Source: Microcaldota archaeon (lineage in GTDB: Archaea; Micrarchaeota; Micrarchaeia; Micrarchaeales; CABMGC01). From it: a stretch of DNA of 32,522 bases. The stretch spans positions 15,636-48,157 of the forward strand of contig JAGDYB010000005.1 in NCBI GenBank assembly GCA_023270055.1. The letters are read 5' to 3'. Below, piece after piece: positions 1-17,863 of the stretch (positions are counted from its first letter, which is position 1; the number at the start of each line of letters is the position of its first letter). A program made the translations under genes and the position numbers. The notes beneath the pieces are model-generated. The model saw only the letters and a list, made by a program, of their open reading frames with translations, made no database searches and had not been told where the DNA came from.

Positions 1-1075
1 CGCCCTGCCGCTCTCCCGCGTCGCCCCTGAGCTGCCACGTAAGCTCGACAATCTGCTTCACGCCTGTTGCTCCTACAGGATGCCCGCAGCCCTTCAGCCC
101 GCCGCTCGTGTTTACCGAAACCTTGCCGTTCAGCGCCGTCTCGCCGTCTGCTATCGCCTTTGCCGCCTCGCCCTTCTTGTAAAAGCCTATGTCTTCCATA
201 GCGATGATCTCTGCTATCGTGAAGCAATCGTGCACTTCCGCAACATCAACCTGTTCTGCCCCGACATGCGCCTGCTCGAGCGCCTTTTTCGAAGCGATGC
301 GCGCCGCCTTTATAGATGTCAAACTTTCGCGGTCTGCAAGCCTTATTGTATCGCTTGCCTGCGCGCTGCCGAGTATCCTTATCGGCGTGTCGGTATACTT
401 CTTCGCTATCTCAGCCGGCGCCAACACTATCGCCGCTGCCCCGTCCGTTATCGGTGAGCAGTCAAGCACCTTCAGAGGATCTGCAACAGGCTTTGACTGC
501 ATCACCTCGTCGATACTTATCTTCTTGTGAAACTGCGCGTACTTGTTCTTCAGCGCGTTGTCGTGGTTCTTGACAGCAACCGCAGCCATCTGCTCTTCGG
601 TTGTGCCGTATTCGTACATGTGCCTTTTTGCCATGAGCGCGTAAAGGCCCGGGAAGGTAAAGCCCTGGAAAAGTTCCGTCTCCATGTCTCCCGCGCCGCC
701 AAGTGCGGTCGTCGCCTCGGATGTGGTAACATCGGTCATCTTCTCCACTCCTCCGACAACAACAATGTCATAGGCGCCGCTAGCAACCGAAAGGTAGCCT
801 TCGCGCACCGCACTTCCGCCGCTTGCATTCTCCACCCTTGTCGCGGGCACATTTTTCAATCCAAGCTGGTCCGCAAGCAGCGGCGCTATGTGCTCTTGAC
901 CTACAAGCCTGCCCGGGCTCATCGTGCCGCCGTATATCGCATCTATTTCTTCGCTCGTTATTTTTGCATCTTCGAGCGCTGCGAGGCCCGCCTCGGCCAT
1001 AAGGCTTTTGAGATCGCTCTCCCAGCGTTCGCCAAACTTCGCCATCCCTACTCCTATTACAGCCACGTCTCTCAT
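1..1075 (-). CDS. Thiolase (acetyl-CoA acetyltransferase family), 3' end outside window
   Basis: The reading frame is open for 358 codons from an ATG at 1075 to the left edge, so only a short C-terminal tail is missing. The N-terminus (VAVIGVGMAKFGERW) and the GVEKMTDV, DCSPITDGAAA, EVHDCF and GGLKGCGHPVGATG motifs match the archaeal SCP-x-like thiolases that condense two acetyl-CoA to acetoacetyl-CoA. These normally form a complex with HMG-CoA synthase and a DUF35 protein, and the order HMG-CoA synthase then thiolase seen here is the usual archaeal one; DUF35 would lie off the left edge. The odd point is the active site: where relatives have a CASG motif with the nucleophilic Cys, this protein reads RVENASGGSAV (about residues 84-94), lacking the Cys. 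The His of GHP is kept and an extra Cys precedes it. The family is certain; activity is in doubt. Confidence 0.88.
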   Translation of the reverse strand, partial: MRDVAVIGVGMAKFGERWESDLKSLMAEAGLAALEDAKITSEEIDAIYGGTMSPGRLVGQEHIAPLLADQLGLKNVPATRVENASGGSAVREGYLSVASGAYDIVVVGGVEKMTDVTTSEATTALGGAGDMETELFQGFTFPGLYALMAKRHMYEYGTTEEQMAAVAVKNHDNALKNKYAQFHKKISIDEVMQSKPVADPLKVLDCSPITDGAAAIVLAPAEIAKKYTDTPIRILGSAQASDTIRLADRESLTSIKAARIASKKALEQAHVGAEQVDVAEVHDCFTIAEIIAMEDIGFYKKGEAAKAIADGETALNGKVSVNTSGGLKGCGHPVGATGVKQIVELTWQLRGDAGERQG

Positions 1076-1121
1076 AAAAACCATCCGCGATTCCCGCCTG
1101 TTTTCATCTCTGTTTTCATCT

Positions 1122-2171
1122 CTATTTTACAATGAACCCTTTGTTTTTCAGGTACATTGCGTAGTCAACATAAATCTTGCCTGCACTTATCATCTGCCTG
1201 ACAGGCACAGTCCTGGCCCTTTTCTTTTCTATCGGCTCTTTTATTTCGAGCACAAACGAATCGCTTCCGGCACCAGAGCCAAAACTCGTGACAAGCACCT
1301 TGTCGCCCGGCTTTGCCACGTCAAGCACTGCGGCAAGGCCGAGGAGCGACGAACCTGAATATGTATTGCCAATCAGCGGCACCAATAGCCCCTGCTCTAT
1401 CTGCTTCATTTCGAAACCAAGCTGCTTTGCAACATTTATCGGAAACTTTCCGTTCGGCTGGTGGAAGACCGCATAAGCGAAATCGCTTGGCCTCATGCCG
1501 GTGTCTTTGAGTATGAGCTCTGTTGCGCCTACAACGTGCTTGAAGTATGCGGGCTCGCCGGTGAACCTGCCCGAATGTGAAGGAAATTCCGCGCCATCCC
1601 TTCTCCAGAAATCCGGGGTATCGGTAGTGTAGCTTGCCGTATTTGTTATTTCGGCAATTACCTCGCTTTTTGCGTTTCCTATTATGTATGCGGCACCTCC
1701 CGCGCCGGTGGTGTATTCAAGCGCATCTCCGGGCCTGCCCTGCGATGTGTCTGCGCCTATGCTCATCCCGTATCTTATCATTCCAGATTTTGCAAAGCCC
1801 AAAAGTATTTGAATGCCCGCTGTGCCCGCCTTGCACGCAAACTCAAGGTCTGCAGCCATTAGCCGCGGATTGCTGCTTATCGCCTTCGCGACTATTGTAG
1901 CTGTAGGCTTCACCGCGTACGGATGCGACTCTGAGCCCACATAAATTGCCTCTATTTTGTCTCCGCTGATTCCGGCGCTGGTCAGCGCCCTCCGTGCCGC
2001 CTCCACCGCTATCGTAGCTGCATCTTCATCCGCATCTGGAACCGCTTTCTCCATTACATTGAGCCCCTCGCGTATGCTTGCCGGATCGGTATGCCAAACC
2101 CTTGCTATTTCCTCGACCTTTATCCTGAACGAAGGCACATATGCGCCATAACCAACAATTCCAACCGTCAC
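1122..2171 (-). CDS. Hydroxymethylglutaryl-CoA synthase, archaeal type
   Basis: This 349-residue protein should condense acetoacetyl-CoA with acetyl-CoA to HMG-CoA, the entry to isoprenoid lipid synthesis. Length and motifs fit the archaeal family: [10 protein letters not shown] at the N-terminus, a Glu in [13 protein letters not shown] (E81), the nucleophile in [10 protein letters not shown] (C113) and the general base in [10 protein letters not shown] (H237). All catalytic residues are present. The start is a GTG at 2171; the preceding in-frame triplets run back to a TAA only four codons upstream, so no longer start exists. A GGTGAT sequence directly abuts the GTG. The gene is 14 nt downstream of the oxidoreductase beta gene and 46 nt before the thiolase, so all are probably one transcript. 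A second, very different HMG-CoA synthase lies at the head of the same gene run. Confidence 0.93.
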
Positions 2172-2185
2172 ATCACCATATTACA

Positions 2186-3043
2186 TTATTTGTATATTTC
2201 CAACGCTTTTTCCACATCGCCGCTCGAAGGCATTGGCGTCTCTATGAGCGGACCGTTTTTAGTAGTCACATCGAGCTCTTCGTAAGTCGGGCGCTTGGTC
2301 TGGTAGAAAAGCCCGATTGGTATCTTCTCCCAGCCCGTAGCCTCTGGCTCCATTGCTTTTTCAATTGCCTTTCCAAAATTTGAAGGATCATGATCCGCGC
2401 CGAGCTTGTACACCCTTTTCCTGAACCAATCGTATGTGTTGAGGGTGTTAAACGTGACGCACGGGCTCAGCATGTCTATGAGCGCAAAGCCCTTATGGAG
2501 TATGCCGTTCTTTATCAGCTCGGCAGCGTGCATTGGATCGCCTGAGAATCCCCTTGCCACGTACGTGGCGCCGGCGCTGAGTGCAACCGCAAGCGGATTT
2601 ATAGGCTCTTCTATGTCGCCGAAAGGCGTAGACACTGTTTTTGCACCGATGAGAGACGTCGGCGACGCCTGACCCGTGGTGAGGCCATATATCTGATTGT
2701 TCATCACAATCATTGTTATGTCAACATTCCTCCTCGCCACGTGAAGCAAGTGGGCGCTGCCGATGCCATACGCATCGCCGTCTCCAGTAGTAACGATAAC
2801 GGTGAGCTTCGAGTTTGCGAGCCTCATGCCTGTGGCGACTGGCAGCGGCCTTCCGTGAAGGCTGTGCATACCGTATGTGCTGAACAGGTGAGGCATTGAT
2901 GAGCTGCAGCCTATGCCAGATACTATGGCAACAGAAGACTTGTCTATGTTAAGCTCGGTGAGCGCGCGCAGAAGCGCAGCGTGCACGCCAAAGTCCCCGC
3001 ATCCGGGGCAGAAAACCGGTTTCACACTTGATGAGTAGTTCAT
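2186..3043 (-). CDS. 2-oxoacid:ferredoxin oxidoreductase, beta subunit
   Basis: This 285-residue subunit binds thiamine diphosphate and one iron-sulfur cluster, and passes electrons from oxidative decarboxylation of a 2-oxoacid (pyruvate or 2-oxoglutarate) to ferredoxin, giving an acyl-CoA. The cluster ligands can be placed at C12 and C15 (FCPGCGDFG), C46 (GIGCSSS) and C195 (SPCVTF), the spacing known from the two-subunit Sulfolobus enzymes. The ThDP-Mg motif is GDGDAYGIG (from about residue 87) followed by MNNQIYGLTTGQASPT. The ATG has a GGTGAT ribosome-binding site 5 nt upstream. It starts 4 nt after the fused gamma-alpha gene, so the two are translated together. Sequence alone does not fix the substrate; the neighbouring acetyl-CoA-using enzymes argue for pyruvate. 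Confidence 0.93.
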   Translation of the reverse strand: MNYSSSVKPVFCPGCGDFGVHAALLRALTELNIDKSSVAIVSGIGCSSSMPHLFSTYGMHSLHGRPLPVATGMRLANSKLTVIVTTGDGDAYGIGSAHLLHVARRNVDITMIVMNNQIYGLTTGQASPTSLIGAKTVSTPFGDIEEPINPLAVALSAGATYVARGFSGDPMHAAELIKNGILHKGFALIDMLSPCVTFNTLNTYDWFRKRVYKLGADHDPSNFGKAIEKAMEPEATGWEKIPIGLFYQTKRPTYEELDVTTKNGPLIETPMPSSGDVEKALEIYK

Positions 3044-3047
3044 GATA

Positions 3048-4781
3048 TCACCATTTTAGCATAATTTCGTTAGCCTTCTCCGTAATGTATGCTGCCGTAA
3101 TCGGCTCTCCGTCATACCTCAATATCTTGTGCTCTATATCTATGCCTGCGTTCGCCGCAAGCAGATATGCAAGCTGCCCCGTGTAGTTGCATTCCACGTC
3201 TATGAGCTTCTTGCCTGCAAGCAGCATCTTCGTCTTCTCCTTGTCCATTGGCATTAGGTAGTTGAAGGATATTACCCCGACCTTCTTGCCCGCGGCTCTT
3301 AGCCTTTCTGCAGCTTCAAGCGCAGCGCCTGTCGTTGATCCAAAGCACACAAGGTAATAGTCAGCGCCTTCGGTGTCAACGTGCGGAACGAAGACATTTT
3401 CGTTCTTAAGCATAGTGTCAACTTTCCTCATTCTCTTTTCGTGCATTTTCCTTCTTGTTTCAACAGAAACCTCAAGCCCGGCAAGCACGTCAGAAACGAG
3501 ATCGCCGTATTCGTCGTGCTCATCGCTTGCCGCGATGAATTCTAGCCCTTGCGTACCCGGTATCGACCTGGGGGACACGCCGTCCGGAGTGATTTCGTAC
3601 CTCTTGAACCTTTCGCTGCCCGCTGCGGTTGCTATTTTGCCCCTATCAACCTTTACCTTTGAAAAGTCGAAAGAGTCAACGGTCCGCGAACTCTCTGAAA
3701 GGAACAGATCCATGAGTATTATCACCGGGCACTGGTAGCGCTCCGCGAGATTGAAGGCGTCGGCGGCTACGTAAAAGGCTTCATCCACGCTCCTCGGCGC
3801 TACAACAATTCTTGGAAATTCGCCCTGCGATGCGTGCATGACGAAAAGCATGTCGCCCTGCTCGGTCTTTGTAGGCAGACCCGTGCTCGGCCCAGTTCTT
3901 TGCGACTCGACCACGACTATCGGCGTTTCTGTCATGCCCGCAAGACCAAGGCCTTCAACCATAAGCGAAAACCCTCCTCCGCTAGTGCCACACATTGCCC
4001 TGACGCCGGCAGTTGCAGCACCTATTGTCATGTTTATTGCCGCAATTTCGTCTTCTGTTTGCTTGAATACCACACCTCTGTTCTCGTTTGCAGCAAACCA
4101 ATTCATTATGGTGCTCGCCGGAGTCATTGGATATGCAGCGTAGAACTTGCACCCTGAAGCGTATGCACCTATTGCCAGAGCCGTGTTGCCGTTTATAATG
4201 TATCTTGCCTTCCCATCGCCCTTCAGCTCATATGCCTTTTCTATGCCGGCAAAATTGTATCCTGCATTTGCGGCCTTCACATTGTTGTCCACCACAGCCT
4301 GACCCTTCCTAAGAAACATCTCCGAAAGTATTTTTTCGAAAACCTTTATGTCCAAGCCCAATATTTTCAGCAGCGCGCCTATTGAGACAACGTTTCTCGC
4401 TATAGGATCGCCAGCATTTTCCACCGCAAGCTCTATGAGTGGCATGCCCACGAGCTTGTAGCCCTTGCCCTTAAGTACATCTGCATTCGCCTTTGACGTG
4501 TCATATATTACGAAGGCGCCGCTGTTGAGCTGCCCGGACTGGTTGTCTATTGCGTCCTGGTTCAGCGCGACCAGTATGTCTATGCCATCGCCCTGGCTGT
4601 AAATTTGCGCATCGCTTATCCTGACTTGACTCCATACGTGCCCTCCTCTTATCACCGACTGATAGCCCCTGGAATAGTATGCGTTGAGACCGGAGCGAGC
4701 AGCTATTTTCGAAAGGAGCGAGCCGCTTGACTCCACTCCGTCGCCGTTGGAAGCCGCAATCCTTATTACTATGTCAGCCAT
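3048..4781 (-). CDS. 2-oxoacid:ferredoxin oxidoreductase, fused gamma-alpha subunit
   Basis: This is the partner of the beta subunit. Roughly residues 1-180 form the gamma domain (IRIAASNGDGVESSGSLL, then SRGYQSVIRGGHVW), and about 195-577 the alpha domain, with the CoA/substrate motif AAYPMTPAST, then CGTSGGGFSLM and QRTGPSTGLPTKTEQGD. The YPMTP motif and the gamma-alpha fusion are typical of the two-subunit archaeal enzymes of Sulfolobales and Thermoplasmatales; there is no separate delta ferredoxin subunit. I chose the ATG at 4781, giving MADIVIRI; an in-frame ATG at 4799 would add six residues (MYTSGF) but overlaps a less likely leader. The gene follows the long HMG-CoA synthase by 30 nt and precedes the beta gene by 4 nt. 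Confidence 0.92.
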   Translation of the reverse strand: MADIVIRIAASNGDGVESSGSLLSKIAARSGLNAYYSRGYQSVIRGGHVWSQVRISDAQIYSQGDGIDILVALNQDAIDNQSGQLNSGAFVIYDTSKANADVLKGKGYKLVGMPLIELAVENAGDPIARNVVSIGALLKILGLDIKVFEKILSEMFLRKGQAVVDNNVKAANAGYNFAGIEKAYELKGDGKARYIINGNTALAIGAYASGCKFYAAYPMTPASTIMNWFAANENRGVVFKQTEDEIAAINMTIGAATAGVRAMCGTSGGGFSLMVEGLGLAGMTETPIVVVESQRTGPSTGLPTKTEQGDMLFVMHASQGEFPRIVVAPRSVDEAFYVAADAFNLAERYQCPVIILMDLFLSESSRTVDSFDFSKVKVDRGKIATAAGSERFKRYEITPDGVSPRSIPGTQGLEFIAASDEHDEYGDLVSDVLAGLEVSVETRRKMHEKRMRKVDTMLKNENVFVPHVDTEGADYYLVCFGSTTGAALEAAERLRAAGKKVGVISFNYLMPMDKEKTKMLLAGKKLIDVECNYTGQLAYLLAANAGIDIEHKILRYDGEPITAAYITEKANEIMLKW

Positions 4782-4811
4782 AAAACCACTAGTATACATC
4801 CAAATTCAGCA

Positions 4812-6677
4812 TTACGCTACTAAATCTTTTTGCTTGAAAGATTGTGCACTGCTTTCGCTTCTTGCCCTTTCGTACAAGGAAAGGTAAGGAGCCAGGTTGC
4901 CGGTGAGCTCCGCCTCGTTTACGTGCATCATTCGGAACATCGAATTGCTAATTAAAGGGGCCGGGCGGCTGGCGCCAAGCAGCACGCTGTTCTTTCTTAT
5001 GCTTTCGTATTCGCCGGCGCTTATCTCGCGAAGGGAATTGAGTTCGGTATCTACATTGCGCTTTACAGTCTCTATCATTTTTTCTATGTTGCGCGGCTTG
5101 CCGTATATCGTGCTTGTCTCGAGGCCGCTCCCGTAGAACATCATAAGTATGTCGTTTGTGCTGGCAAAATCCGAATATGAAAGATAGCTTGCGAGGCCCA
5201 GCGGCGCCGAGCCAGTGTAAAGGTTGCCGGTCATTGAAGATATTCTCACGGACTCGTCTATGCTCATTCTTTTCTTGTACTCCTTGAAGATTGTGGTAGA
5301 CCTTATGCGCTTCACGTAATCATTGTCAGCCGCTTCGAAGGCTGCTATTATGTCGCGCGCTGGCTTGAACGCATCGTCAAGCTGCTGAAGCGTCGTCCTT
5401 TCGCTGCTGCGCAGCGATTCAAGGTTTTCTATAACACTGATGAACGAAGCGCCGAGCTCGCCGGTCGGCTTGTATCTTGCCGCTATTTCCCTTGTCTCAT
5501 TTTGGATGTAGCGCAGTATCAAATCCCTGTTAGCGTTGAGCATGCGCTCCGCGAGCTCCACATTCCCGTTTTTGTCGCGCGCGCCGAGCCGCGCATCAAG
5601 CTCCTTTGGCACGCCGACAAGACTGTAGTACAGACCGTTGAAGTCCATTATGAACGAGAGTTCGTCCTCTATTCTTGTGAATCCATCAAGGAAAGGTTCT
5701 GCCGCACCGCCAAGCTCGGCTTCAAGCCTGCTCTTGAGCTCGCTATCGTACCTGGTAAAGTGCCTGAACAGATAGGCAAAAGCCTTTTCCGGCATAGCCA
5801 CGGTTGGTATGTGTGATATGAAAGAGAGACTGTTGTGCAGCGACAGATCGCTAATGCTTTTGCCCATCTCGCGCATGATGCTTTTTACAGATTCGTAGTC
5901 CGCGAGAAAATATGTTTCTTCCGAAAACTTTCCGAATACAATGGGGTATTTTGCAACAAGCTCCAAGCCAGTCTCACCATACAAGTCCTTTATGATGGGC
6001 TTGAGGAAATCAGGCACCTTCCTGCTGAAATGCCCTATCTTGCTCGAAAGCATGATGCCGTTGGTGTTGCTGCTTGTCTTCTCGAGCAATACAGCGACAG
6101 AGCCGAAGCCTCCCGTCTCGTCCGGCGGCGTATGCAATGCGTATTCCGCGCTGTCGGTTGCAACAACTATGGCCTTGCCGCCATTAATGCCGTTAAGCGC
6201 GAAGTTTGAGATTGCAAGGCCTGCAGAGGCGCACGCAGACTGAACGTGAAGCTGGGCAAGCGGCTCGAACTGGCCGAACGAATAGCCGCGCCTGTTAAGC
6301 GCTGCAAGGACCTTGTTTACCGCATCCTTCACCTCGACTGCCATGCTCTCCGATATGTCTTGCGGCGTTTCTGTGGCGACTACAAGCGTCTTGATATCCG
6401 CCGGATCCACGCCATACGACAAAATTAGCTTTACAACTGCAAGCGCCGCGTTTGTGATTATGTTTTCGCCTATGTTCGCCACTGTGGTCGACTTTATGCC
6501 GAGGCCTTTGACAACTTTCTCCGCCTCTGCCTGAACCTCAACGGCGCCGCTCTTTATCGTCTTTACCTTTTCAAGCGTCGATATTTTCGTAGTGCCAAGA
6601 GATACTGCGATGCCTGTGATTGTCACGTAGCTTTCAAACTCCTCCCTTTTTGCATTCAAAATCTCGCTGCTGAGCAT
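4812..6677 (-). CDS. Long HMG-CoA synthase of bacterial/eukaryotic type with a helical insertion
   Basis: This 621-residue protein has the fold markers of bacterial and eukaryotic HMG-CoA synthase rather than the short archaeal one: ATETPQD (E103), VQSACASAG (C149, nucleophile), VVATDSAEYAL, SHIPTVAMPEKAF (H289) and, far downstream, GNLYTGSAPLGLASYL and MMFYGSGLETS. The Glu/Cys/His triad is intact. In ordinary members about 70 residues separate the His motif from the GNLYTGS motif; here there are about 195, rich in Glu, Lys, Arg and Leu (about residues 310-475) and probably helical. A TATA-like TTTAAAAA at 6705-6713 lies about 31 nt before the ATG, so this gene probably heads the five-gene transcript. 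It may make HMG-CoA beside the archaeal enzyme or use another acyl-CoA; I cannot tell. Confidence 0.82.
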   Translation of the reverse strand: MLSSEILNAKREEFESYVTITGIAVSLGTTKISTLEKVKTIKSGAVEVQAEAEKVVKGLGIKSTTVANIGENIITNAALAVVKLILSYGVDPADIKTLVVATETPQDISESMAVEVKDAVNKVLAALNRRGYSFGQFEPLAQLHVQSACASAGLAISNFALNGINGGKAIVVATDSAEYALHTPPDETGGFGSVAVLLEKTSSNTNGIMLSSKIGHFSRKVPDFLKPIIKDLYGETGLELVAKYPIVFGKFSEETYFLADYESVKSIMREMGKSISDLSLHNSLSFISHIPTVAMPEKAFAYLFRHFTRYDSELKSRLEAELGGAAEPFLDGFTRIEDELSFIMDFNGLYYSLVGVPKELDARLGARDKNGNVELAERMLNANRDLILRYIQNETREIAARYKPTGELGASFISVIENLESLRSSERTTLQQLDDAFKPARDIIAAFEAADNDYVKRIRSTTIFKEYKKRMSIDESVRISSMTGNLYTGSAPLGLASYLSYSDFASTNDILMMFYGSGLETSTIYGKPRNIEKMIETVKRNVDTELNSLREISAGEYESIRKNSVLLGASRPAPLISNSMFRMMHVNEAELTGNLAPYLSLYERARSESSAQSFKQKDLVA

Positions 6678-6769
6678 AGAATCAGATTGTATGCTTGAAG
6701 AAAATTTTTAAATGGCAGTGCAGCAATTGACAAAGGACGAACGCATAGCAAGGCGGTTGCGCGCGAGCA

Positions 6770-8738: not shown

Positions 8739-10007
8739 ATGGACATACTGGTAAAAAATGCTGTCATAGTGACGCAGGACAGGAACAGGAAAATAGCAAA
8801 TGGGGACATTTACATAAGCGACGGAAGGATAGATGAAATAGGAAAGGATATAAGGGCAGACGCAGACATTGCACTAAAATCAAGAAGCCGGTTAATCGCT
8901 CTGCCGGGATTCATCAATACGCACGCACATATTGCAATGACGCCGCTGCGCGGAAAGGTTGACGATATTGAGTTGAGCCAGTTTCTTGACGCCACGTCAA
9001 GATTCGACAGCAGGAACAGTTACAAGAAAATCTATTATTCTGCAGTACTAGGCATACTCAGCATGATAAGAAGCGGCATCACGCATTTCGTTGACTTCTA
9101 CTATGGCGAAGACGCAATAGCAAAGGCGATTGAAGACATAGGATATAACGCGCACCTTGCCTGGGTGACGCTCGACAAGGACAAGACTACGCAGAAGGGC
9201 GACCCGATATCTAACGCTGAGCATTTCATTAAGCAATACAAGGGCAGCGGGAGTGTAAAGCCGATGGTGGCGGTGCAGGGAGTGTACGCAGCAGGCAAGG
9301 AAACGTTTGGCGCGGCCGCTGAGCTCGCAGACAAATATGATACGCTGACAACAGCGCACGTTGCTGAAACTTATTTTGAAGTTGTGCAACACTTCAGAAA
9401 GTACAGGAGAACACCATTGCAGTGGCTCAGCGACATTGGATTTGTGAATCGCAGGCTTATAGCAGTGCACTGCGTGTGGCTCAGTCGCAGCGAAATTGCA
9501 ATCGCTGCAAAGAAGGCGGGGGCCGTTTCGTACAATCCAACAAGCAACATGAAGCTCGCGTCAGGAATTGCACCGATAAGCAGACTCGTAAGCATGGGCG
9601 CAAACATTACGCTTGGCACGGACAGCGTTGCAAGCAACAACAGTCTAGATATGTTCAACGAGATGAAATACGGCTCGCTGCTGCAAAAGGTGAAGGAGGG
9701 CAATGCTAAGGTACTTGATGCACAGAGCATGCTTGACTTCGCTACCGTAAACGGCGCGAAAATACTTGGAGAGGGAGATGGTACAATAGAAGTGGGCAAA
9801 CCCGCAAACATTGTACTGCTCAACCCAGAACCGAACATGCTGCCGGTGCCGAAAGCAGGCGGCATTGTTAAGGACATAGTATATGCTGCCAACCCGGGAA
9901 ACGTAGCTGCAACCATAGTCAATGGGCAGCTGCTATACAATAACGGCTTTGCTGAATGGATTGAAAAACTGAGGGATGAAGCGCTAAAGTTCCTTGCACG
10001 CGGCTAG
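8739..10007 (+). CDS. MTA/S-adenosylhomocysteine deaminase-like amidohydrolase
   Basis: This 422-residue metal-dependent hydrolase belongs to the MtaD/AtzC-like branch that deaminates 5'-methylthioadenosine, S-adenosylhomocysteine or related adenosines. Metal and catalytic residues are visible: THAHIAM (H62, H64), TTAHVAET (H207, E210), AVHCVW (H244) and LGTDSVASNNSLDM (D295), with the family motif NPTSNMKLASG between the last two. I prefer the ATG at 8739 (MDILVKNA), the usual family N-terminus, over the in-frame ATG at 8727, which is only 19 nt from the TATA core. The stop codon overlaps the convergent radical SAM gene by 4 nt (CTAG). It could recycle products of radical SAM or methyltransferase enzymes. 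Confidence 0.87.
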   Translation: MDILVKNAVIVTQDRNRKIANGDIYISDGRIDEIGKDIRADADIALKSRSRLIALPGFINTHAHIAMTPLRGKVDDIELSQFLDATSRFDSRNSYKKIYYSAVLGILSMIRSGITHFVDFYYGEDAIAKAIEDIGYNAHLAWVTLDKDKTTQKGDPISNAEHFIKQYKGSGSVKPMVAVQGVYAAGKETFGAAAELADKYDTLTTAHVAETYFEVVQHFRKYRRTPLQWLSDIGFVNRRLIAVHCVWLSRSEIAIAAKKAGAVSYNPTSNMKLASGIAPISRLVSMGANITLGTDSVASNNSLDMFNEMKYGSLLQKVKEGNAKVLDAQSMLDFATVNGAKILGEGDGTIEVGKPANIVLLNPEPNMLPVPKAGGIVKDIVYAANPGNVAATIVNGQLLYNNGFAEWIEKLRDEALKFLARG

Positions 10008-11692
10008 TTTTCTTTTGCTACCATCTGCCACGATTCAAAATGCGTGTTGGACCCCACGCCGTAGCTCTTCACCTTTTCCACATCCAAACCCGCCTTCTTC
10101 GCGATGTGCTCTATCGTCTTGTACATTACCAATCCGCCGAGAGATATCAATGAAGATACGCCCGCCTTTACCACAAGATTCCTCGATTTCGTCTCCTTCC
10201 TCGCATCGCGCATGGCCATCTTGGCAAGGTGTCTGTATGCCGCGTAGTATACCGCAAGCATTGATGGAGTGAGCTCAGCGGTGAATGTCTTTGCCTTTAT
10301 CCTGCCCAATGGCATGTTGTACAGAGGGGTTACCGTGAACTCGAACGGCCTTCCATCCACAAAGGAATTGCTGAGCCTGTTTATTATTGCAACTGTATCC
10401 CAATTGTCTTCGTCAGTTTCGCCTGTTTGCCCAACCTGGACGGTGAAAGCCGGCCTCCAGAAGTATTTGGTCAAGTTGTAAACGCCGCGCCACACTATCT
10501 CCTGCCACGAGCCGTCAACCCCCACTCTAAGCGGCAGGGTTTTCGCAGGCATGTGCATTGCGGCAAGCCTCTCGCTTCCCGTTTCAAGCCCGACCTGTAT
10601 GCCTATCCAGTTGTTTGGGCCTGCTCTGCCTATTTCAGAAAGCTGCCGAATAAGGTCTGGATATGCTGAAGGTATTGAGATGCGCCCGTGCGTAGGGTTT
10701 GTCCTTCTTACTCCGGGTATTGCCATTATCGCCCTGAACAAATCCTTCAGAACCTCCTCGTTTGGCACGTAGTTCTGCAGATGCCTGTAGGCGAAGAATT
10801 CATCAGTGTGTATCCATGCATAATCGAAGCCACCGAGCTGGATATTGACCTTTATTTCCTCCACTATTTTTTCTATCGGATAATAGCGGAGCGGCCTAAG
10901 CGTAACTTCGCAGAAGTCACAGCCTATTCCGCAGCCGCGCATGATCTCGTTTAAGCTCTTAACAGAAGGCTTTACTATGTTTGGTATAGCATCAAGCGCT
11001 GGATAAAGCCCTGCTGCGCCGTTTCTGGATAGGAATTTTTCGTCATTTTTCGAATATCTGTGAAACGTCTCGTCAAACGAGGAATAGCCGTGGATAAACA
11101 TGTTCTTGTCAATGCTGTCTTCGGCAATCTGCTGAAAGAGCAAAGGCGCTACATCATCAGCTTCACCTTGAAAAAGGTAATCTATATTTCCCCGCTCCAC
11201 TTCTTCCCTCAGCAAAGTATATTCCCATACGCCGGGCCCGCCTACGAGCAGCTTCGCCTTCTTTCCCTTTCTCGCTGCATTAACCTTTTGTATCAGCTCT
11301 TCCCATTCCTTCTTGACCCACGCGTTCATTTCTGGGGTCTTGAAAAGTGCGTAATATGACATCGTGGTGGGCCCAAGGCCAAAAGGATCCATTGTAGATA
11401 TGCCTATTACCTCAGTGTCGTCCTTGACAAACTTGTCAAGATAATCCGGATGCGCAACGACAACATCGCCGGGCTTGTTTGCACCGAGCAATGCCGCCTC
11501 TATTTTTCTGAGTGCATAGGGCGCGTACTTAAGCTCCCCGGTCTTGGTAGCGGGCATGGGCTTTCCTCTAAGAAACTTGTATATTGATGAGGGTATGGTG
11601 TTTGAAGGTGCTGAAGGTAGAAAGTCCAGCAGCGGGAAATTTCTGTAGTCATATATAAGTGTATTATCCGATAACAGCACATATTTTACCAT
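10004..11692 (-). CDS. B12-binding-like radical SAM protein
   Basis: The 562-residue protein has an N-terminal Rossmann-like, B12-binding-style part (about residues 1-200, with VIGISTMDPFGLGPTT and LLVGGPGVWEY) and a radical SAM barrel. The cluster motif is C254, C258, C261 (RGCGIGCDFCEV), followed by IHTDEFFAYR and IQVGLETGSERL. A helical C-terminus (about 480-562) completes it. Architecture, length and the opening VLLSDNTLIYDYRNFPLLDFLP resemble, from memory, the archaeal group that contains the tetraether-lipid ring synthases (GrsA/GrsB); that assignment is inference. The DxHxxG cobalamin motif is not evident. I chose the ATG at 11692; a GTG at 11707 in frame would add five residues. No co-directional partner abuts it. 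Confidence 0.85.
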   Translation of the reverse strand: MVKYVLLSDNTLIYDYRNFPLLDFLPSAPSNTIPSSIYKFLRGKPMPATKTGELKYAPYALRKIEAALLGANKPGDVVVAHPDYLDKFVKDDTEVIGISTMDPFGLGPTTMSYYALFKTPEMNAWVKKEWEELIQKVNAARKGKKAKLLVGGPGVWEYTLLREEVERGNIDYLFQGEADDVAPLLFQQIAEDSIDKNMFIHGYSSFDETFHRYSKNDEKFLSRNGAAGLYPALDAIPNIVKPSVKSLNEIMRGCGIGCDFCEVTLRPLRYYPIEKIVEEIKVNIQLGGFDYAWIHTDEFFAYRHLQNYVPNEEVLKDLFRAIMAIPGVRRTNPTHGRISIPSAYPDLIRQLSEIGRAGPNNWIGIQVGLETGSERLAAMHMPAKTLPLRVGVDGSWQEIVWRGVYNLTKYFWRPAFTVQVGQTGETDEDNWDTVAIINRLSNSFVDGRPFEFTVTPLYNMPLGRIKAKTFTAELTPSMLAVYYAAYRHLAKMAMRDARKETKSRNLVVKAGVSSLISLGGLVMYKTIEHIAKKAGLDVEKVKSYGVGSNTHFESWQMVAKEN

Positions 11693-11891
11693 AATGTCAA
11701 GCCCCACAAATCTTGCTACTGCAATAAAAACGTTTTTGACATTTGATTTTATAATTAAGTTATAATCCTTAAGTAATAAGAAACATTTTTAAGTGTTTTC
11801 TTCGCCAAAAAAACTTTTAGTAACAAAATAATTTGCGTGTTAAAACACTTGCAACGGCAATATAATTCTGCAGTGTCCTGACTAGCTGTGC
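11693..11891. other. AT-rich intergenic region with a palindrome and a long inverted repeat
   Basis: No convincing coding sequence is present. A perfect 12-bp palindrome (AAAAACGTTTTT) lies at 11726-11737, 34-45 nt before the radical SAM start and overlapping a possible TATA box. TTATAAAAT-like sequence at 11747-11757 is a second TATA candidate. A 9-bp inverted repeat, AAGTGTTTT at 11791-11799 and AAAACACTT at 11842-11850, encloses 42 nt. T-rich runs on the minus strand may also end the transcript of the small membrane protein gene. Confidence 0.45.
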
Positions 11892-12358: not shown

Positions 12359-12757
12359 TTATTGCACGATTTCCAAGCTCGAAGATGAAGGATCTATTTT
12401 TACCCTTTTTCCGCCGACCTGACCGTTGAAAAGATAGTCTTCTGAACTTGTGACAAGAGGTATGCCGCCCAATATGCAACCCGTGATAAGTATTGGCTCC
12501 GCGGATTTCACCACTATCGCCTTCGGGGCTACATTGTTTTTCGAAAGAGCATAAAGGACATACGAGCCGACAGTGCTACCACGCGTGCCTGGAACTACCA
12601 GCACCTTGCCTGCTATGCTCACTCCTTTTATATTAGAGTTTGGGTCTTTGACCACGCCAGTCTTTGGGTCGATATCTCCGAAGAATGATATGGGATTAAG
12701 CGAAACAACTGCCTCGCTCTCCGCTGCACCTTCCACTATAACCTTTATTTTAACCAT
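12359..12757 (-). CDS. Phosphomevalonate dehydratase, small subunit (aconitase X swivel domain)
   Basis: This 132-residue protein is the swivelling small domain of the aconitase-X type phosphomevalonate dehydratase. With the large subunit it removes water from mevalonate 5-phosphate to give trans-anhydromevalonate 5-phosphate in the archaeal mevalonate pathway. The marker is VPGTRGSTVGSYV (about residues 55-67), containing the serine that aconitase-like enzymes use near the substrate, plus ISFFGDIDPKTG and ITGCILGGIPLV. The ATG at 12757 is chosen because a GGTG sits 5 nt upstream and it lies 10 nt past the large-subunit stop; a longer frame to 12805 would overlap the large subunit. It is the last gene of the three-gene operon. 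Confidence 0.92.
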   Translation of the reverse strand: MVKIKVIVEGAAESEAVVSLNPISFFGDIDPKTGVVKDPNSNIKGVSIAGKVLVVPGTRGSTVGSYVLYALSKNNVAPKAIVVKSAEPILITGCILGGIPLVTSSEDYLFNGQVGGKRVKIDPSSSSLEIVQ

Positions 12758-12767
12758 AGCAACACCA

Positions 12768-13940
12768 TCATTTGCCAGTCGCAGCACGCACGAGCTCCTC
12801 GGCACTCATCGAGGCCACGCTTGTCCCGTGAACCCTTGAAAGGTAGAAGAATGACTTGCCTGAGTTCGTCGCTATGCTTTTGAACATGCTGCCGAGCGGC
12901 GCAACCACAGGGCACGTGTCTACTATAATCTCTACGCCATGCTTCATCAGGCGCTCTGCGACGCCTTCCTGCGCCGCAGCCTTGTAAACATCGCTTCCTG
13001 TTGTTATCCAGAACCTCTTCCCCTTGGAAACACTGCCGTAGCTCTCGAAATACTTGAGTATATCGCGCATGTCTTCGATGCTTGCGTGCGGGCAGCCAAC
13101 AAAATAAAGTTCGCTTGCCTGACCTATGCTCTTTTCCATGGATATGTCCTTTTCGCCTATTTTTATCTTTTCCAGGCCGGATGTGTCGGCGCGCTCCTTG
13201 GTGACTCCCTTGACAAAGGCCATACCCACGCTGCCGCTTGCAGCCATCGCAGCAAGCATTATCCTTAGCGCTGTATCGCCGACTTTTGGCATGCTTATGA
13301 ACGGGATGCCGTCCTTCACGAGCTCTCCTATCTTGAGCCCGAGCGCCCCAGCCATCGCGTCGTCAATCTTGCCCAGCTCAACGTCAATTTCCACTGAAGG
13401 CTTCCTGTTTTCGTCTATATGCAAGCCGGAGTAGTAAGTTTTTCCGACAAGCGCTGCAAGCACGGAAAGAGGACCTCCTTCCCTGTTCGTCCTCGCGCCT
13501 ACAACACTGTTCGCGTATATCACCGCGCTCGACTCGCCCCACGCAATGTGCTCTCCGTATGCGGGCATTTTTGAATAGTACGGCGTGCACGAAAGCGTTA
13601 TGTTGAATCCCATCTTCCTGAATGCATTTATTATGCGGAGTTGCTTCTCTGCAAAGCCTTCTGGCAGGGGTATGACCTCTTTCGTAGTGTCATAGCCTAT
13701 AGGATTTAGCGTTGCGTAAACTTTAGCCCTGGCGCCCTGGTTTGCCAGATCTTCAAGGAACTCCATGCCCGGATCGCCGATGTTGTTGTATGACAGGCCA
13801 GATGCGTGCGCATTCGTTATGCTTACAAGGCGCTCAGCACCCACGGCCTCACCAAGCTTCACAATTACCTGCATTGCCTTCTGGCTTGCCGCACCCTCCT
13901 CGCCATCATAGACCTTTTCCTCATCTTTTGTCAGATACAT
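12768..13940 (-). CDS. Phosphomevalonate dehydratase, large subunit (aconitase X)
   Basis: The 390-residue large subunit carries the active site and the iron-sulfur cluster of phosphomevalonate dehydratase. Three cysteines sit in conserved-looking places: C118 (SCTPYY), C283 (VGCPH) and C343 (DTCPVV), suitable as cluster ligands. Other aconitase-X features are NAHASGLSYNNIGDPG near residue 45, ANSVVGARTNREGG near 145-155 and RVHGTSVASM at the C-terminus. The ATG has GTGAT just upstream and begins 4 nt after the decarboxylase stop, so it is translated from the same mRNA. It acts between mevalonate kinase and the UbiD-type decarboxylase. Splitting into large and small subunits is the archaeal arrangement. 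Confidence 0.93.
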   Translation of the reverse strand: MYLTKDEEKVYDGEEGAASQKAMQVIVKLGEAVGAERLVSITNAHASGLSYNNIGDPGMEFLEDLANQGARAKVYATLNPIGYDTTKEVIPLPEGFAEKQLRIINAFRKMGFNITLSCTPYYSKMPAYGEHIAWGESSAVIYANSVVGARTNREGGPLSVLAALVGKTYYSGLHIDENRKPSVEIDVELGKIDDAMAGALGLKIGELVKDGIPFISMPKVGDTALRIMLAAMAASGSVGMAFVKGVTKERADTSGLEKIKIGEKDISMEKSIGQASELYFVGCPHASIEDMRDILKYFESYGSVSKGKRFWITTGSDVYKAAAQEGVAERLMKHGVEIIVDTCPVVAPLGSMFKSIATNSGKSFFYLSRVHGTSVASMSAEELVRAATGK

Positions 13941-13944
13941 GAAA

Positions 13945-15372
13945 TCACAAGTTCAGAGCCAATACCTTGTATCCGCGTACTGCGCTAATCTTTATGTCGC
14001 CAAAAATTGTAACCATGCCGTCAGCCAAATACTTGGAATAGCCCTTGATCCTTTTTTCTTTGAGCATAGCGTCAAGCTCCTCCTTTACCTCGCGTGGCAA
14101 CGGCTTGAGCTCTGGCAGCGCGCTTTTTCTATACTTATCGCGTTCCGCAAGCGGCGCAGTCGCGTCTATGCCGACCTTTGATGTTATGCCGTCCTTGGCA
14201 CTTGGGTCTAGGCTTGATCCCCTCGCCTCATTTATTATCACCATCTTGCTTGGCTGGAACCTTGTCGCTATCGCCCACTCTATTTCCTCCAGCTTGTCGA
14301 TGTCAACATCAGAATCAACAACTATGACATTTTTCAGGCTCGTATGCCCGGTGAATGCAGCAAGTATTGCGGTTTTCGCGTCGCCATCGGTGTTTTTCTC
14401 TATCGATATTGCGCAGTGCAGCCACATACCCCCGCCGCTCGTGAGCCTGACCTTCTTTACCTTTGGCACCACGCGCGAAACCATCTCGTATATCGCAGCT
14501 TCGCGCGGATATCCCATAAGCAGCTTGTGCTCCTCACCTCCGGGCAGTATCATGTTGAGCAACGGTTTTTTGCCCTCGTAGAACGCCTCAGCCTCGAAAA
14601 CTGGCTCTTCTCTTACAATGTCAGACGTGCTTGTGAGATCAACGAACGGGCCTTCCCTGGCCTTTTCTCTAAGTATCTTGCCTTCCACAACAACAGATGC
14701 ATCTGCAGGCACTGGTATGCCATACTTCGGCGTCATCGACACCGTGAATCCAGGCAACAGTTTTTCCGCGACGTCCATCTCGAAGACGCCATAGCTTGGG
14801 CTCATCGCGGCTGCGAGCTGTGCAACTGGATGCATGCCAACTACAAGCGCAACCTCCAGATCCTCGCCGCCCTTGTTCTTCTCCTTGAGCATAGTGTACA
14901 AGTTCCTCGGAACTATGCGCAACGCTGCTCTGCTGTCGCTCAGCAGGAGCATCCTGTGGAAGGAGGCATTTGATATATTGCCAAGCTTCGCGAATATCAC
15001 GCCTGAGGTGAGATACATGCCCGCATCATTAGGATAATACATTGCAAACGGCAGGTCTGAAAGCTTTGCGTCTGCTTTGCGCAGCTTGAATCTTGTCTCC
15101 TGCGCCTTGCCCGGCTTTTCTATCGCCTCAAGCAGTCTTTTGTATGCGGCAGTATCACCATCCACTCCAAGCGCAGACCAGAGCTCTTCCCTCCTAGTAA
15201 AAATGTTGCCCAAGAATTCGTACTTTGCATCCTTGAATTTAAGCTTGACAACATTCTTTCTCTCGTTTTCGGTCAGAAGCCTCGTTGGCTCGTATGCCCT
15301 GTCCACTATGCCAAGGCTTAGCGGCTTGCGCGACAGCGAGCTCGCATATTTTTCTAAGGAAAAATCACTCAT
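13945..15372 (-). CDS. Anhydromevalonate phosphate decarboxylase (UbiD family)
   Basis: This 475-residue UbiD-family protein would use prenylated FMN to decarboxylate trans-anhydromevalonate 5-phosphate to isopentenyl phosphate. UbiD features include VGMHPVAQLAAAMS, LPGGEEHKLLMGYPREAAIY (residues near 270-290), RVVPKVKKVRLTSGGGMWLHCAI and EEIEWAIATRFQPSKMVII, which carries the conserved Glu/Arg environment of the cofactor. Location directly upstream of both phosphomevalonate dehydratase subunits is what separates it from ubiquinone-type or aromatic decarboxylases. A TATA element at 15419-15426 lies about 50 nt before the ATG, giving a short leader with GGATGAT near the start. A perfect palindrome sits just upstream of that TATA. 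The UbiX needed to make the cofactor is not in the window. Confidence 0.92.
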   Translation of the reverse strand: MSDFSLEKYASSLSRKPLSLGIVDRAYEPTRLLTENERKNVVKLKFKDAKYEFLGNIFTRREELWSALGVDGDTAAYKRLLEAIEKPGKAQETRFKLRKADAKLSDLPFAMYYPNDAGMYLTSGVIFAKLGNISNASFHRMLLLSDSRAALRIVPRNLYTMLKEKNKGGEDLEVALVVGMHPVAQLAAAMSPSYGVFEMDVAEKLLPGFTVSMTPKYGIPVPADASVVVEGKILREKAREGPFVDLTSTSDIVREEPVFEAEAFYEGKKPLLNMILPGGEEHKLLMGYPREAAIYEMVSRVVPKVKKVRLTSGGGMWLHCAISIEKNTDGDAKTAILAAFTGHTSLKNVIVVDSDVDIDKLEEIEWAIATRFQPSKMVIINEARGSSLDPSAKDGITSKVGIDATAPLAERDKYRKSALPELKPLPREVKEELDAMLKEKRIKGYSKYLADGMVTIFGDIKISAVRGYKVLALNL

Positions 15373-15745: not shown

Positions 15746-16624
15746 TCATGTGAGATTGCCGAGCGGAACGAAAGAAACATTGCTATATGCTATAGCGTTA
15801 TAGAGGTGGCCGCTGTAATCATCTAGATTGCCGTTAAGCGGGTACCAAGCGACGAGATCGGTAAATATTGGGAGGCTTGTGCCAACTCCCGTGCTGTACA
15901 ACTGCTCAATTTGGCTGCTTGAAAGCGAGATATTGTAGATCTGCACATCAGACAACAGACCGTCGTATCCTACGTTAAAGTTGTTGCTGGAGAAGGGAAA
16001 TACTGAAGACAGAAGAAGAGAGGTGCTGTTGGATACCCACATTTTCTTTGAGGCGCTGTTGAACAGCAGAGGAATGAAAGTGTTATTATAAAGCTTGCCA
16101 TTTATGTAAATGCCCAAAGTATTGTTGCTGTTGAGTGTTTCGGCAATGAATATCCACTTGTTCATGTAATTGAAGGGGATCAAAGACATTAAGCAATCTT
16201 TAGAATTAGAGCACACTATAACTGAAAGGTTGCCTGCGCCGCTCCATGAGGTGACAACTTGCGGAAATCCTCCCGAACCTGAAAGCTGAAATATTTGCTC
16301 CGAGTACTTGCTGCCGTTTATGCCGTTTCCTATGCGCTTAGGGTACATCCAGAAGCTTATAGAAAACGTATTGTTAAAGTCGCTGCTGATGGCGCTTGAC
16401 ATATAGCTGATTGTTTTGCTGGTAGTGTTAAATCCTGCTGCTTCTGAGATGTTCATTGGAGGTATTGTGGTAAAGGTTGATGTTGGCGGAACTGTTGTAG
16501 TGTTCGCCAAAGTTGTCTTAACAGTGCTTGTGGGTGCAACCGTCCTCATACTGAATAATATAATTGCTATCACCAATACTATAATCAATATGGCAATTAT
16601 CGTCACCAAAAACAGATTTTGCAT
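15746..16624 (-). CDS. Membrane-anchored extracellular LamG/concanavalin-like protein
   Basis: The 292-residue protein begins with a 20-odd residue hydrophobic anchor (about 4-27), then a Thr/Pro/Val-rich stretch (about 28-56) typical of an extracellular stalk, and a domain of about 230 residues. Signatures of the LamG/concanavalin-like jelly roll are ISFWMYPKRIG, GKLYNNTF, YDGLLSDVQIYNISLSSSQIEQLYSTG and the terminal VAWYPLNGNLDDYSGH. Such domains bind sugars or proteins outside the cell. Several Asn-X-Ser/Thr sites suggest N-glycosylation. TTAATATAG about 27 nt before the ATG fits a leaderless mRNA, and an inverted repeat (AACATTT/AAATGTT, 16653-16668) sits just upstream of that box. Its binding target cannot be read. 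Confidence 0.8.
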   Translation of the reverse strand: MQNLFLVTIIAILIIVLVIAIILFSMRTVAPTSTVKTTLANTTTVPPTSTFTTIPPMNISEAAGFNTTSKTISYMSSAISSDFNNTFSISFWMYPKRIGNGINGSKYSEQIFQLSGSGGFPQVVTSWSGAGNLSVIVCSNSKDCLMSLIPFNYMNKWIFIAETLNSNNTLGIYINGKLYNNTFIPLLFNSASKKMWVSNSTSLLLSSVFPFSSNNFNVGYDGLLSDVQIYNISLSSSQIEQLYSTGVGTSLPIFTDLVAWYPLNGNLDDYSGHLYNAIAYSNVSFVPLGNLT

Positions 16625-16807: not shown

Positions 16808-17863
16808 ATGGAAAATGTCGAGGCACCAGCGGTCATAAAACTTCTTGGGGAGCACGCAGTGGTATATGGAAGGCTTTCGGTTGCCGCTGCAATTTCGCTT
16901 TATGCTGAGGCTTCAATGGAGAAGAGTGGCAGTGAATACCTAAAAATAAGGCTTGAGGATCTGGGCTTAGAAGGTACTTTCAGCAACGAGCAGCTAAAGA
17001 AGCTGGGCGCTGACTATGAAGGCAGAAAGAGCATAGTCGAGTACATAGAAGAAGAGCGGAATATAGACAGAAAGCTCCTTCCTTTCGCAACAATAGCCGC
17101 AAGGATAGCCAAAGAGCTTGACATGGACATGTCTGGCATCGATATAACGATTAGGTCGCACATACCTATGGGCAAGGGCCTTGCGAGCAGCGCTGCAGCT
17201 TCAACCGCTTTTGCGGTGTGTCTGATAAAAGAGTATTCAGAAAGAACAAAGAAAGTCGTGGACAGCGAAATAGCGATTGATATTGCAAGGGACGGGGAAA
17301 GGATAGTTCATGCCAATGAAAATGCAGGAAAGATCGATGTGAGCACTTCGTATCTTGGTGGCATAGTGAGCTATAGCGCAAGCGCTGGGGCGAAGAAGGA
17401 AAGCGCAGCAGTAGACTTCAAGATAGTATTGATAGACACAGGACCGAAGAAAAGCACCGCAGAAACTGTAGGTCACGTCACCGAATTGTACAATAGAAAT
17501 AGAGGGTATGTAGAAGGTATTATGGACAAGATTGACAAATGCAGTAACATCGGGCTTCACGCAATAAAGATGGGGGACACAAGGCTCTTAGGCAGATACA
17601 TGTTCATAGACCATCACCTTCTTAGCCAGCTTGGCGTGTCTAGCGAAAGGCTGGACATGGCCGTCGAAGCCGCTGAAAAGAGTAGTGCATACGGTGCCAA
17701 GCTAAGCGGCGGCGGAGGAGGGGGAATCGCAATCGCCATAACAGACAAGGAAAGCCAATTGATTGGGAGCTTGGCCAAGCTAAATATGGAAGCAAGAGCA
17801 GTTGCCATAACAGATAAGGGAGCATCTGCGGTGCTGAAGGCAAGAAAGTTGCAAAATGCTTGA
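16808..17863 (+). CDS. mvk: Mevalonate kinase (GHMP family)
   Basis: This 351-residue GHMP kinase should phosphorylate mevalonate to mevalonate 5-phosphate, the substrate of the phosphomevalonate dehydratase encoded 3 kb away. Motif 1 is APAVIKLLGEHAVVYG (K11, E15, H16), the ATP-binding loop is MGKGLASSAAAS (residues 121-132), the catalytic-base region is ENAGKIDVSTSYLGG (D178) and motif 3 is AKLSGGGGGGIAIAI. Length is normal for archaeal mevalonate kinases. The PSGID form of motif 2 common in bacterial and eukaryotic enzymes is replaced by AGKID, but the Asp is kept. It is transcribed alone, from its own TATA box, divergent from the LamG gene. Confidence 0.93.
   Translation: MENVEAPAVIKLLGEHAVVYGRLSVAAAISLYAEASMEKSGSEYLKIRLEDLGLEGTFSNEQLKKLGADYEGRKSIVEYIEEERNIDRKLLPFATIAARIAKELDMDMSGIDITIRSHIPMGKGLASSAAASTAFAVCLIKEYSERTKKVVDSEIAIDIARDGERIVHANENAGKIDVSTSYLGGIVSYSASAGAKKESAAVDFKIVLIDTGPKKSTAETVGHVTELYNRNRGYVEGIMDKIDKCSNIGLHAIKMGDTRLLGRYMFIDHHLLSQLGVSSERLDMAVEAAEKSSAYGAKLSGGGGGGIAIAITDKESQLIGSLAKLNMEARAVAITDKGASAVLKARKLQNA

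Follow-up and report, generated by a model that had tools for sequence, protein, structure and literature searches.

The window analyzed here, a stretch of 32,522 nucleotides from a genome of a Microcaldota archaeon, carries at its left end a minus-strand operon whose first gene encodes a divergent HMG-CoA synthase of 621 amino acids, hereafter X (P0001; 4812..6677, with an ATG start). It is followed by the alpha subunit of a 2-oxoacid:ferredoxin oxidoreductase (OFOR; a gamma-alpha fusion of 583 aa, 3048..4799, TIGR03710 at 639.7 bits), the OFOR beta subunit (285 aa, 2186..3043, NF008820 at 407 bits, above cut-off), a canonical archaeal HMG-CoA synthase (HMGCS; P0002, 349 aa, 1122..2171), and an archaeal acetoacetyl-CoA thiolase (2..1084) that is cut by the window edge and has lost its nucleophilic Cys. 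All five genes lie on the minus strand, with gaps of 12, 4, 14, and 37 nt between them, and the DUF35 (zinc-ribbon/OB-fold) partner follows the thiolase beyond the window edge (L030:15090-15494). The initial annotation had placed a normal archaeal HMGCS in the same run as X, and the gene at 1122..2171 is just that: it scores 527.6 bits with TIGR00748 (cut-off 353) and 546.7 bits with NF003274, and its catalytic residues are intact in the alignment. Read on the plus strand, 4812-6677 is riddled with stops; the real open reading frame is on the minus strand, and a chance or artefactual frame is ruled out by the homologues and profile matches described below. A TATA-like A/T-rich box, TTTAAAAATTTTC (6700..6712, minus strand), which we read by eye 23-35 nt upstream of the start codon, is a possible leaderless archaeal promoter of X.

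Further mevalonate genes lie elsewhere in the window. The small and large subunits of aconitase X (12359-12805, PF01989 at 6e-34, and 12768-13940, PF04412 at 7e-132, both on the minus strand) are candidates for the phosphomevalonate dehydratase of the archaeal mevalonate pathway, and the UbiD-family decarboxylase beside them (13945..15372, minus strand, TIGR00148 at 296.9 bits) is a candidate anhydromevalonate phosphate decarboxylase. With the mevalonate kinase (16808..17863, plus strand, TIGR00549 at 182 bits, cut-off 163), these genes are a hallmark of the archaeal mevalonate route; the HMG-CoA reductase (HMGR) of the species is encoded on another contig (G000:C19). Relatives (L090, L091, L092, L160, and L162) have a canonical operon of OFOR alpha, OFOR beta, HMGCS, thiolase, and DUF35. 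The genes that recur beside X in the sister family (DUF2666, HTH, tRNA-synthetase, and flippase genes) are ordinary or uninformative, and conserved neighbors were set aside as a clue to the function of X. The window also encodes a 567-aa radical SAM protein (10004-11707, minus strand) whose similarity to B12-binding radical SAM families (TIGR04013) is weak and, in its right part, four PMT-type glycosyltransferases (PF13231; 18001-19674, 19975-21564, 25280-27055, and 29053-30885), beside which is the gene for a 292-aa protein with a concanavalin-like lectin domain (15746-16624).

Profile searches place X among the HMG-CoA synthases, at a distance from every curated family. In Pfam, it matches PF08540 (HMG-CoA synthase, C-terminal) at 2.3e-11, above the cut-off, and PF01154 (N-terminal) at 1e-3, below it. 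The score with TIGR01835, the model for prokaryotic HMG-CoA synthase, is 116.6 bits (1.1e-33) and falls below the curated cut-off of 360.35, so X is not filed as a member of that equivalog. Scores with the haloarchaeal model NF041302 (98.1 bits, cut-off 800) and with the eukaryotic NCBIfam model (61.4 bits, far under its curated cut-off) are lower, and those with the best KAS III model (28.6 bits, cut-off 249) and the archaeal TIGR00748 (20.8 bits, cut-off 353) are lower again. All 21 homologues in one alignment (A2) match both the haloarchaeal and the prokaryotic models. The AlphaFold model of full-length X (pLDDT 82, pTM 0.85) has an HMG-CoA synthase fold in which the additional stretch forms long helices. 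Its top Foldseek match is MvaS (5hwr, E 8e-17, TM 0.77 by target length), followed by plant, human, and staphylococcal HMG-CoA synthases and then by PksG, CurD, and the archaeal enzyme; identity to known enzymes in the Foldseek alignments is 15-20%.

The phylogeny leads to the same placement. A maximum-likelihood tree built from 56 proteins, without eukaryotic sequences, gathers all 32 X proteins in a single clade (support 94/82), which joins the haloarchaeal, MvaS, and PksG enzymes with support of 100/100 and stands apart from both KAS III and the archaeal HMG-CoA synthases. The two KAS3 outgroup rows are poor, one being without the Cys and the two not grouping together, which leaves the root of the tree unsure; the placement of X does not depend on the root. 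The clade splits into two subclades, each supported at 100/99: A, which has a long insert and contains the window protein, and B, in which the insert is shorter. We consider these comparisons to support X as an HMG-CoA synthase of the MvaS/eukaryotic branch at the level of the clade. The clade is apparently undescribed and is sister to the bacterial, haloarchaeal, and polyketide HMG-CoA synthases. Our literature searches found no paper that separates two HMGCS types in Micrarchaeota, and a recent survey of the phylum handled HMGCS as a single gene with mostly vertical inheritance (PMC12892359).

The catalytic residues of X are intact. The Glu/Cys/His triad noted in the initial annotation is present as described, with Glu103 (codon 6369..6371), the acyl acceptor Cys149 (6231..6233), and His289 (5811..5813), all on the minus strand, invariant in 32/32 X homologues. 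Asp175, Tyr179, Phe224, Lys226, Ser252, Pro291, and Asn485 are kept in the same 32, Asn485 lying in the GNLYTGS motif (residues 484-490; 5208..5228, minus strand). With bacterial MvaS and eukaryotic HMGCS (PF01154 plus PF08540, TIGR01835, TIGR01833), X shares the triad, the core fold, and the motifs DxAxY, DFxK, YPIVxGxxS, HxP, GNxYTGS, and YGSG. An identity as KAS III was rejected on the invariant Glu103, the score far under the KAS III cut-off, and the position in the tree. The polyketide beta-branching HMG synthases (PksG, CurD) have a similar fold and fall in the same 100/100 clade. However, Phe and Lys at 224/226, found in 32/32 X homologues, match the signature of mevalonate-type enzymes, in which Phe is paired with Lys or Arg, whereas PksG-type rows have Thr (Ser in one) with Arg at these positions and Phe, Pro, Cys, or His instead of Tyr at 179. 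These residues and the separate clade of X led us to reject a PksG identity as well, and no acyl-carrier-protein gene was seen by Pfam among the operon genes.

What sets X apart is a segment between the His motif and GNLYTGS. Residues 311-476 (5250..5747, minus strand) form an all-helical insert, recognized by spacing comparison and AF2, with predicted helices at 336-367, 375-382, 384-402, 406-423, and 430-459. The distance from the catalytic His to the GNxY Asn is 196 residues in the window protein, within a range of 173-239 for A-type X, and compares with 111-125 in B-type X, 84 in haloarchaeal enzymes, 42-43 in bacterial MvaS, and 32 in the archaeal type. The figure of about 125 extra residues given earlier is thus fair; the insert measures about 110-165 depending on the reference. 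Folded alone, this region, which the initial annotation had singled out for structure prediction as residues 310-475, again gives a confident helical bundle (pLDDT 88, pTM 0.78). The insert has no match in Pfam, no relative among PDB sequences, and no significant match among PDB folds (best E 1.1), and a known domain was dropped as its identity. It occupies the segment that is already most variable between HMG-CoA synthase types, which makes a role as a lid or an assembly element the simplest guess: the insert would close over the active site or mediate assembly. A C-terminal extension, likewise claimed before, is present and modest, with 137 residues after the GNxY Asn in X and 110-121 in MvaS; in the AF2 model and by spacing comparison, it is a helix at residues 588-620 (4818..4916, minus strand).

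The insert also helps to distinguish X from its nearest relatives. Bacterial and eukaryotic enzymes have 42 residues where A-type X has 173-239, and they form a separate sister clade. The haloarchaeal HMG-CoA synthase (NF041302) shares with X the branch of the family, occurrence in an archaeon, and a longer His-Asn segment, but A-type X has some 90-155 residues more and is not nested among the haloarchaeal rows. With the canonical archaeal HMG-CoA synthase of the thiolase-DUF35 complex (TIGR00748, PDB 6ESQ), X has in common the reaction class, the superfamily fold, and, in the window, the operon; its score nevertheless reaches 20.8 of the 353 bits required, and the tree separates it from the archaeal type. 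No dependence of X on DUF35 is evident, since several genomes with X as their only HMGCS were found to be without any thiolase.

Genomic contigs were scanned with an X profile made from a five-member alignment. Among the matches listed for the 295 genomes of the phylum, strong ones (E below 1e-33) are confined to the order of the window species, and more than 100 genomes from other families of the class give only a weaker cross-match to the canonical enzyme of 350 aa. X and canonical HMGCS largely exclude each other. Of the order's 148 genomes, a canonical HMGCS above cut-off is found in 43, X in 68, and both in four (G000, the window genome, with G017, G118, and G178), against 19.8 expected (Fisher p=4.6e-9); at the genus level, which is the level at which these statistics handle phylogeny, the exclusion holds at p=1.4e-4, in genomes that are incomplete. 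A fifth double carrier, G222, has a weaker X match.

Relics of the canonical enzyme point in the same direction. In one genus (g33; G042 and G089), X is present, and the HMGCS homologue that stands by an intact thiolase and DUF35 (L097:6733-7803, L166:6781-7851) has none of the Glu, Cys, His, and Asn. A copy of the same motif-less protein at a contig edge in a third genome of the genus (G188, L168:19-873) is a fragment consistent with a dead HMGCS. Between G042 and G089, dN/dS is 0.10 for the dead HMGCS, 0.065 for X, and 0.02 for the thiolase; X is under purifying selection, and the value of 0.10 indicates that the dead protein is also retained under such selection. PMC12329534, citing Vogeli et al. 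2018, describes a solved archaeal complex in which a single CoA site serves both thiolase and HMGCS and DUF35 holds the pair together; this arrangement is perhaps why the dead HMGCS has been kept. G118 and G178 have an intact version of each system, with X located away from the mevalonate operon, as it is in G222. One further genome, G048, has an operon (L041:5176-10563) of B-type X, a bacterial-type thiolase, OFOR alpha, and OFOR beta and carries an A-type X elsewhere (L040:9144-10865). Read across the order, these arrangements suggest INTERMEDIATE stages of replacement, the canonical operon (i) and the G048 operon (v) among them. The window species shows the reverse of g33, with a thiolase that lacks its nucleophile beside an intact canonical HMGCS; since the latter is intact, the replacement there would be incomplete.

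The window copy of X appears to be a newcomer to its operon. In the tree, it clusters with sister-family proteins (G043, G047, G042, and G089), away from the other A-type X proteins of its own family, and a topology that forces all A-type proteins of its own family into one group is rejected (AU p=8.8e-6). The gene was probably acquired laterally and inserted ahead of the old operon, although ancient paralogy with losses is a possible origin.

We therefore favor, at a probability of about 70%, a reading in which the X clade, restricted within the Micrarchaeota sampled to a single order, serves the mevalonate pathway and has repeatedly replaced the canonical enzyme, the window species being a case of rare overlap. 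The activity of X, its substrate, and the direction of replacement are what we infer here. By homology, Cys149 would be acetylated by acetyl-CoA and Glu103 would assist formation of the enolate; His289 would help to hold acetoacetyl-CoA, to whose C3 the enolate would add, and hydrolysis would then free HMG-CoA. The X family would have displaced the canonical enzyme, which works in the thiolase-DUF35-HMGCS complex, several times within the order. In the window species, an X related to those of the sister family would have been placed before the old operon, where the HMGCS is still intact and the thiolase is without its nucleophile.

A mevalonate role does not extend readily to every member of the clade. 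HMGR is found in only 23/64 genomes that have X without the canonical enzyme, compared with 35/39 canonical-only genomes. The 41 X-only genomes without HMGR include single-contig genomes (G058, G082), and in the 13 examined within a set of 60 genomes, every catalytic residue of X is kept and thiolase is absent from 12. These observations would suit a reading in which X works outside mevalonate synthesis, supplying for example HMG-CoA or a branched acyl-CoA to some other use, its operon position in the window being incidental. However, the window gene sits in a mevalonate operon by OFOR, HMGCS, thiolase, and DUF35, and the B-type X of G048 sits with thiolase and OFOR. Among genomes without canonical HMGCS, moreover, PF22700 (the mevalonate decarboxylase/3-kinase type, a marker of the lower mevalonate pathway) is found in 47/64 with X and in 18/41 without it (p=0.0037). 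It is kept in 25 of the 41 X carriers that lack HMGR, G058 and G082 among them, which suggests a gap at HMGR and not the absence of the pathway. Ca. Micrarchaeum harzensis is reported to have this gap too (PMC8975820). A non-mevalonate role for the clade is consequently unlikely in our view. The gap itself would reflect mevalonate supplied by the host, an unrecognized reductase, or another use of HMG-CoA.

The initial annotation saw in the two versions of the enzyme a division of labor. One form of this would have the old HMGCS channeled in the thiolase-DUF35 complex while X works on a free or different acyl-CoA, both being active. The premise of the annotation stands, in that a second, non-orthologous type of HMG-CoA synthase does share the operon. 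Both genes are intact, five double carriers are known, and the large insert of X could alter the entrance to the active site. The conclusion is weakened, however, by how rare such genomes are, four in the order where about 20 would be expected, and by the dead copy in one genus. In G118, G178, and G222, X is away from the mevalonate operon, and the different acyl-CoA substrate that had been proposed finds no positive support in a substrate site with the signature of ordinary mevalonate-type enzymes. Given the mutual exclusion across the order and the dead old copy, co-occurrence looks like a rare overlap stage, and we regard replacement with such overlap as likelier than a division of labor, which we hold to be rather improbable.

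The thiolase raises a different question, namely whether X depends on one at all. The change reported in the window thiolase is real: it reads VENA--SGGS where its operon relatives read ENACASGG, an in-frame loss of 6 nt (two residues), including the nucleophilic Cys, between about positions 823 and 824 on the minus strand. ACASGG is kept in the aligned operon-type relatives that cover this site. The window protein retains the other active-site motifs, HDCF and KGCGHP. With a mean identity of 72.2%, in a range of 67.7-75.8% for the other members, it is not unusually divergent, which suggests that the loss of the Cys is recent or that it is an assembly error. A Cys-competent thiolase is absent from 6/14 X carriers with HMGR and from 0/17 canonical-only genomes in the 60-genome set (p=0.004), the genomes concerned being incomplete MAGs, 84-93% complete. 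The six are the window genome with its deletion, G024 with a Cys-to-Ser change, and four genomes in which none was found (G004, G006, G009, and G049). The G024 protein is a 493-aa thiolase homologue (L176:6107-7588, NISASG) in a genome with both HMGR and X, and its C-terminal extension may be a fused DUF35-like part.

It has been suggested that X compensates for the altered thiolase. The frequent absence of a Cys-competent thiolase from X carriers with HMGR agrees with this, but G118, G178, and G222 have intact thiolases. Loss of the Cys was discarded as a general mark of double carriers, these three keeping it and the partial G017 sequence doing so too. Taken further, X might need no thiolase, condensing two acetyl units to acetoacetyl-CoA and adding a third while thiolases decay in its carriers. 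The lost nucleophile in the window and the 6/14 against 0/17 would fit such an enzyme. Set against this are the bacterial-type thiolases with a Cys motif in other X carriers (G005, G020, G037, G041, G043, and G046) and the thiolase that shares the X operon in G048, superfluous were X to make acetoacetyl-CoA itself; the incompleteness of the genomes, or precursors from the host, could also account for the missing genes. We find this doubtful, and no less speculative is a self-sufficient X whose insert holds the intermediate in place of the thiolase-DUF35 channel, with an unrecognized reductase or another use of HMG-CoA in the species without HMGR. A purely structural or regulatory role for X, with no synthase activity, might be hinted at by the size of its insert and its low identity to the known enzymes, but it is very improbable, given that the triad and surrounding motifs are invariant in 32/32 homologues, that dN/dS is 0.065, and that the true pseudoenzyme of g33 lost its catalytic residues while X did not.

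Formation of HMG-CoA is the step that commits carbon to the membrane lipids of archaea, which are thought to carry it out with a channeling complex of thiolase, DUF35, and HMGCS. Should X have replaced the canonical enzyme as we propose, gene lists that record a single, vertically inherited HMGCS in Micrarchaeota merge two different enzymes. The species that have an HMGCS and the lower mevalonate pathway without a recognizable HMGR then present a sharper puzzle. The X clade displacing the complex within one DPANN order would amount to a natural experiment on how an essential channeled complex is dismantled, with intermediate stages that include both enzymes side by side, a dead HMGCS with a live thiolase, and a live HMGCS with a dead thiolase.
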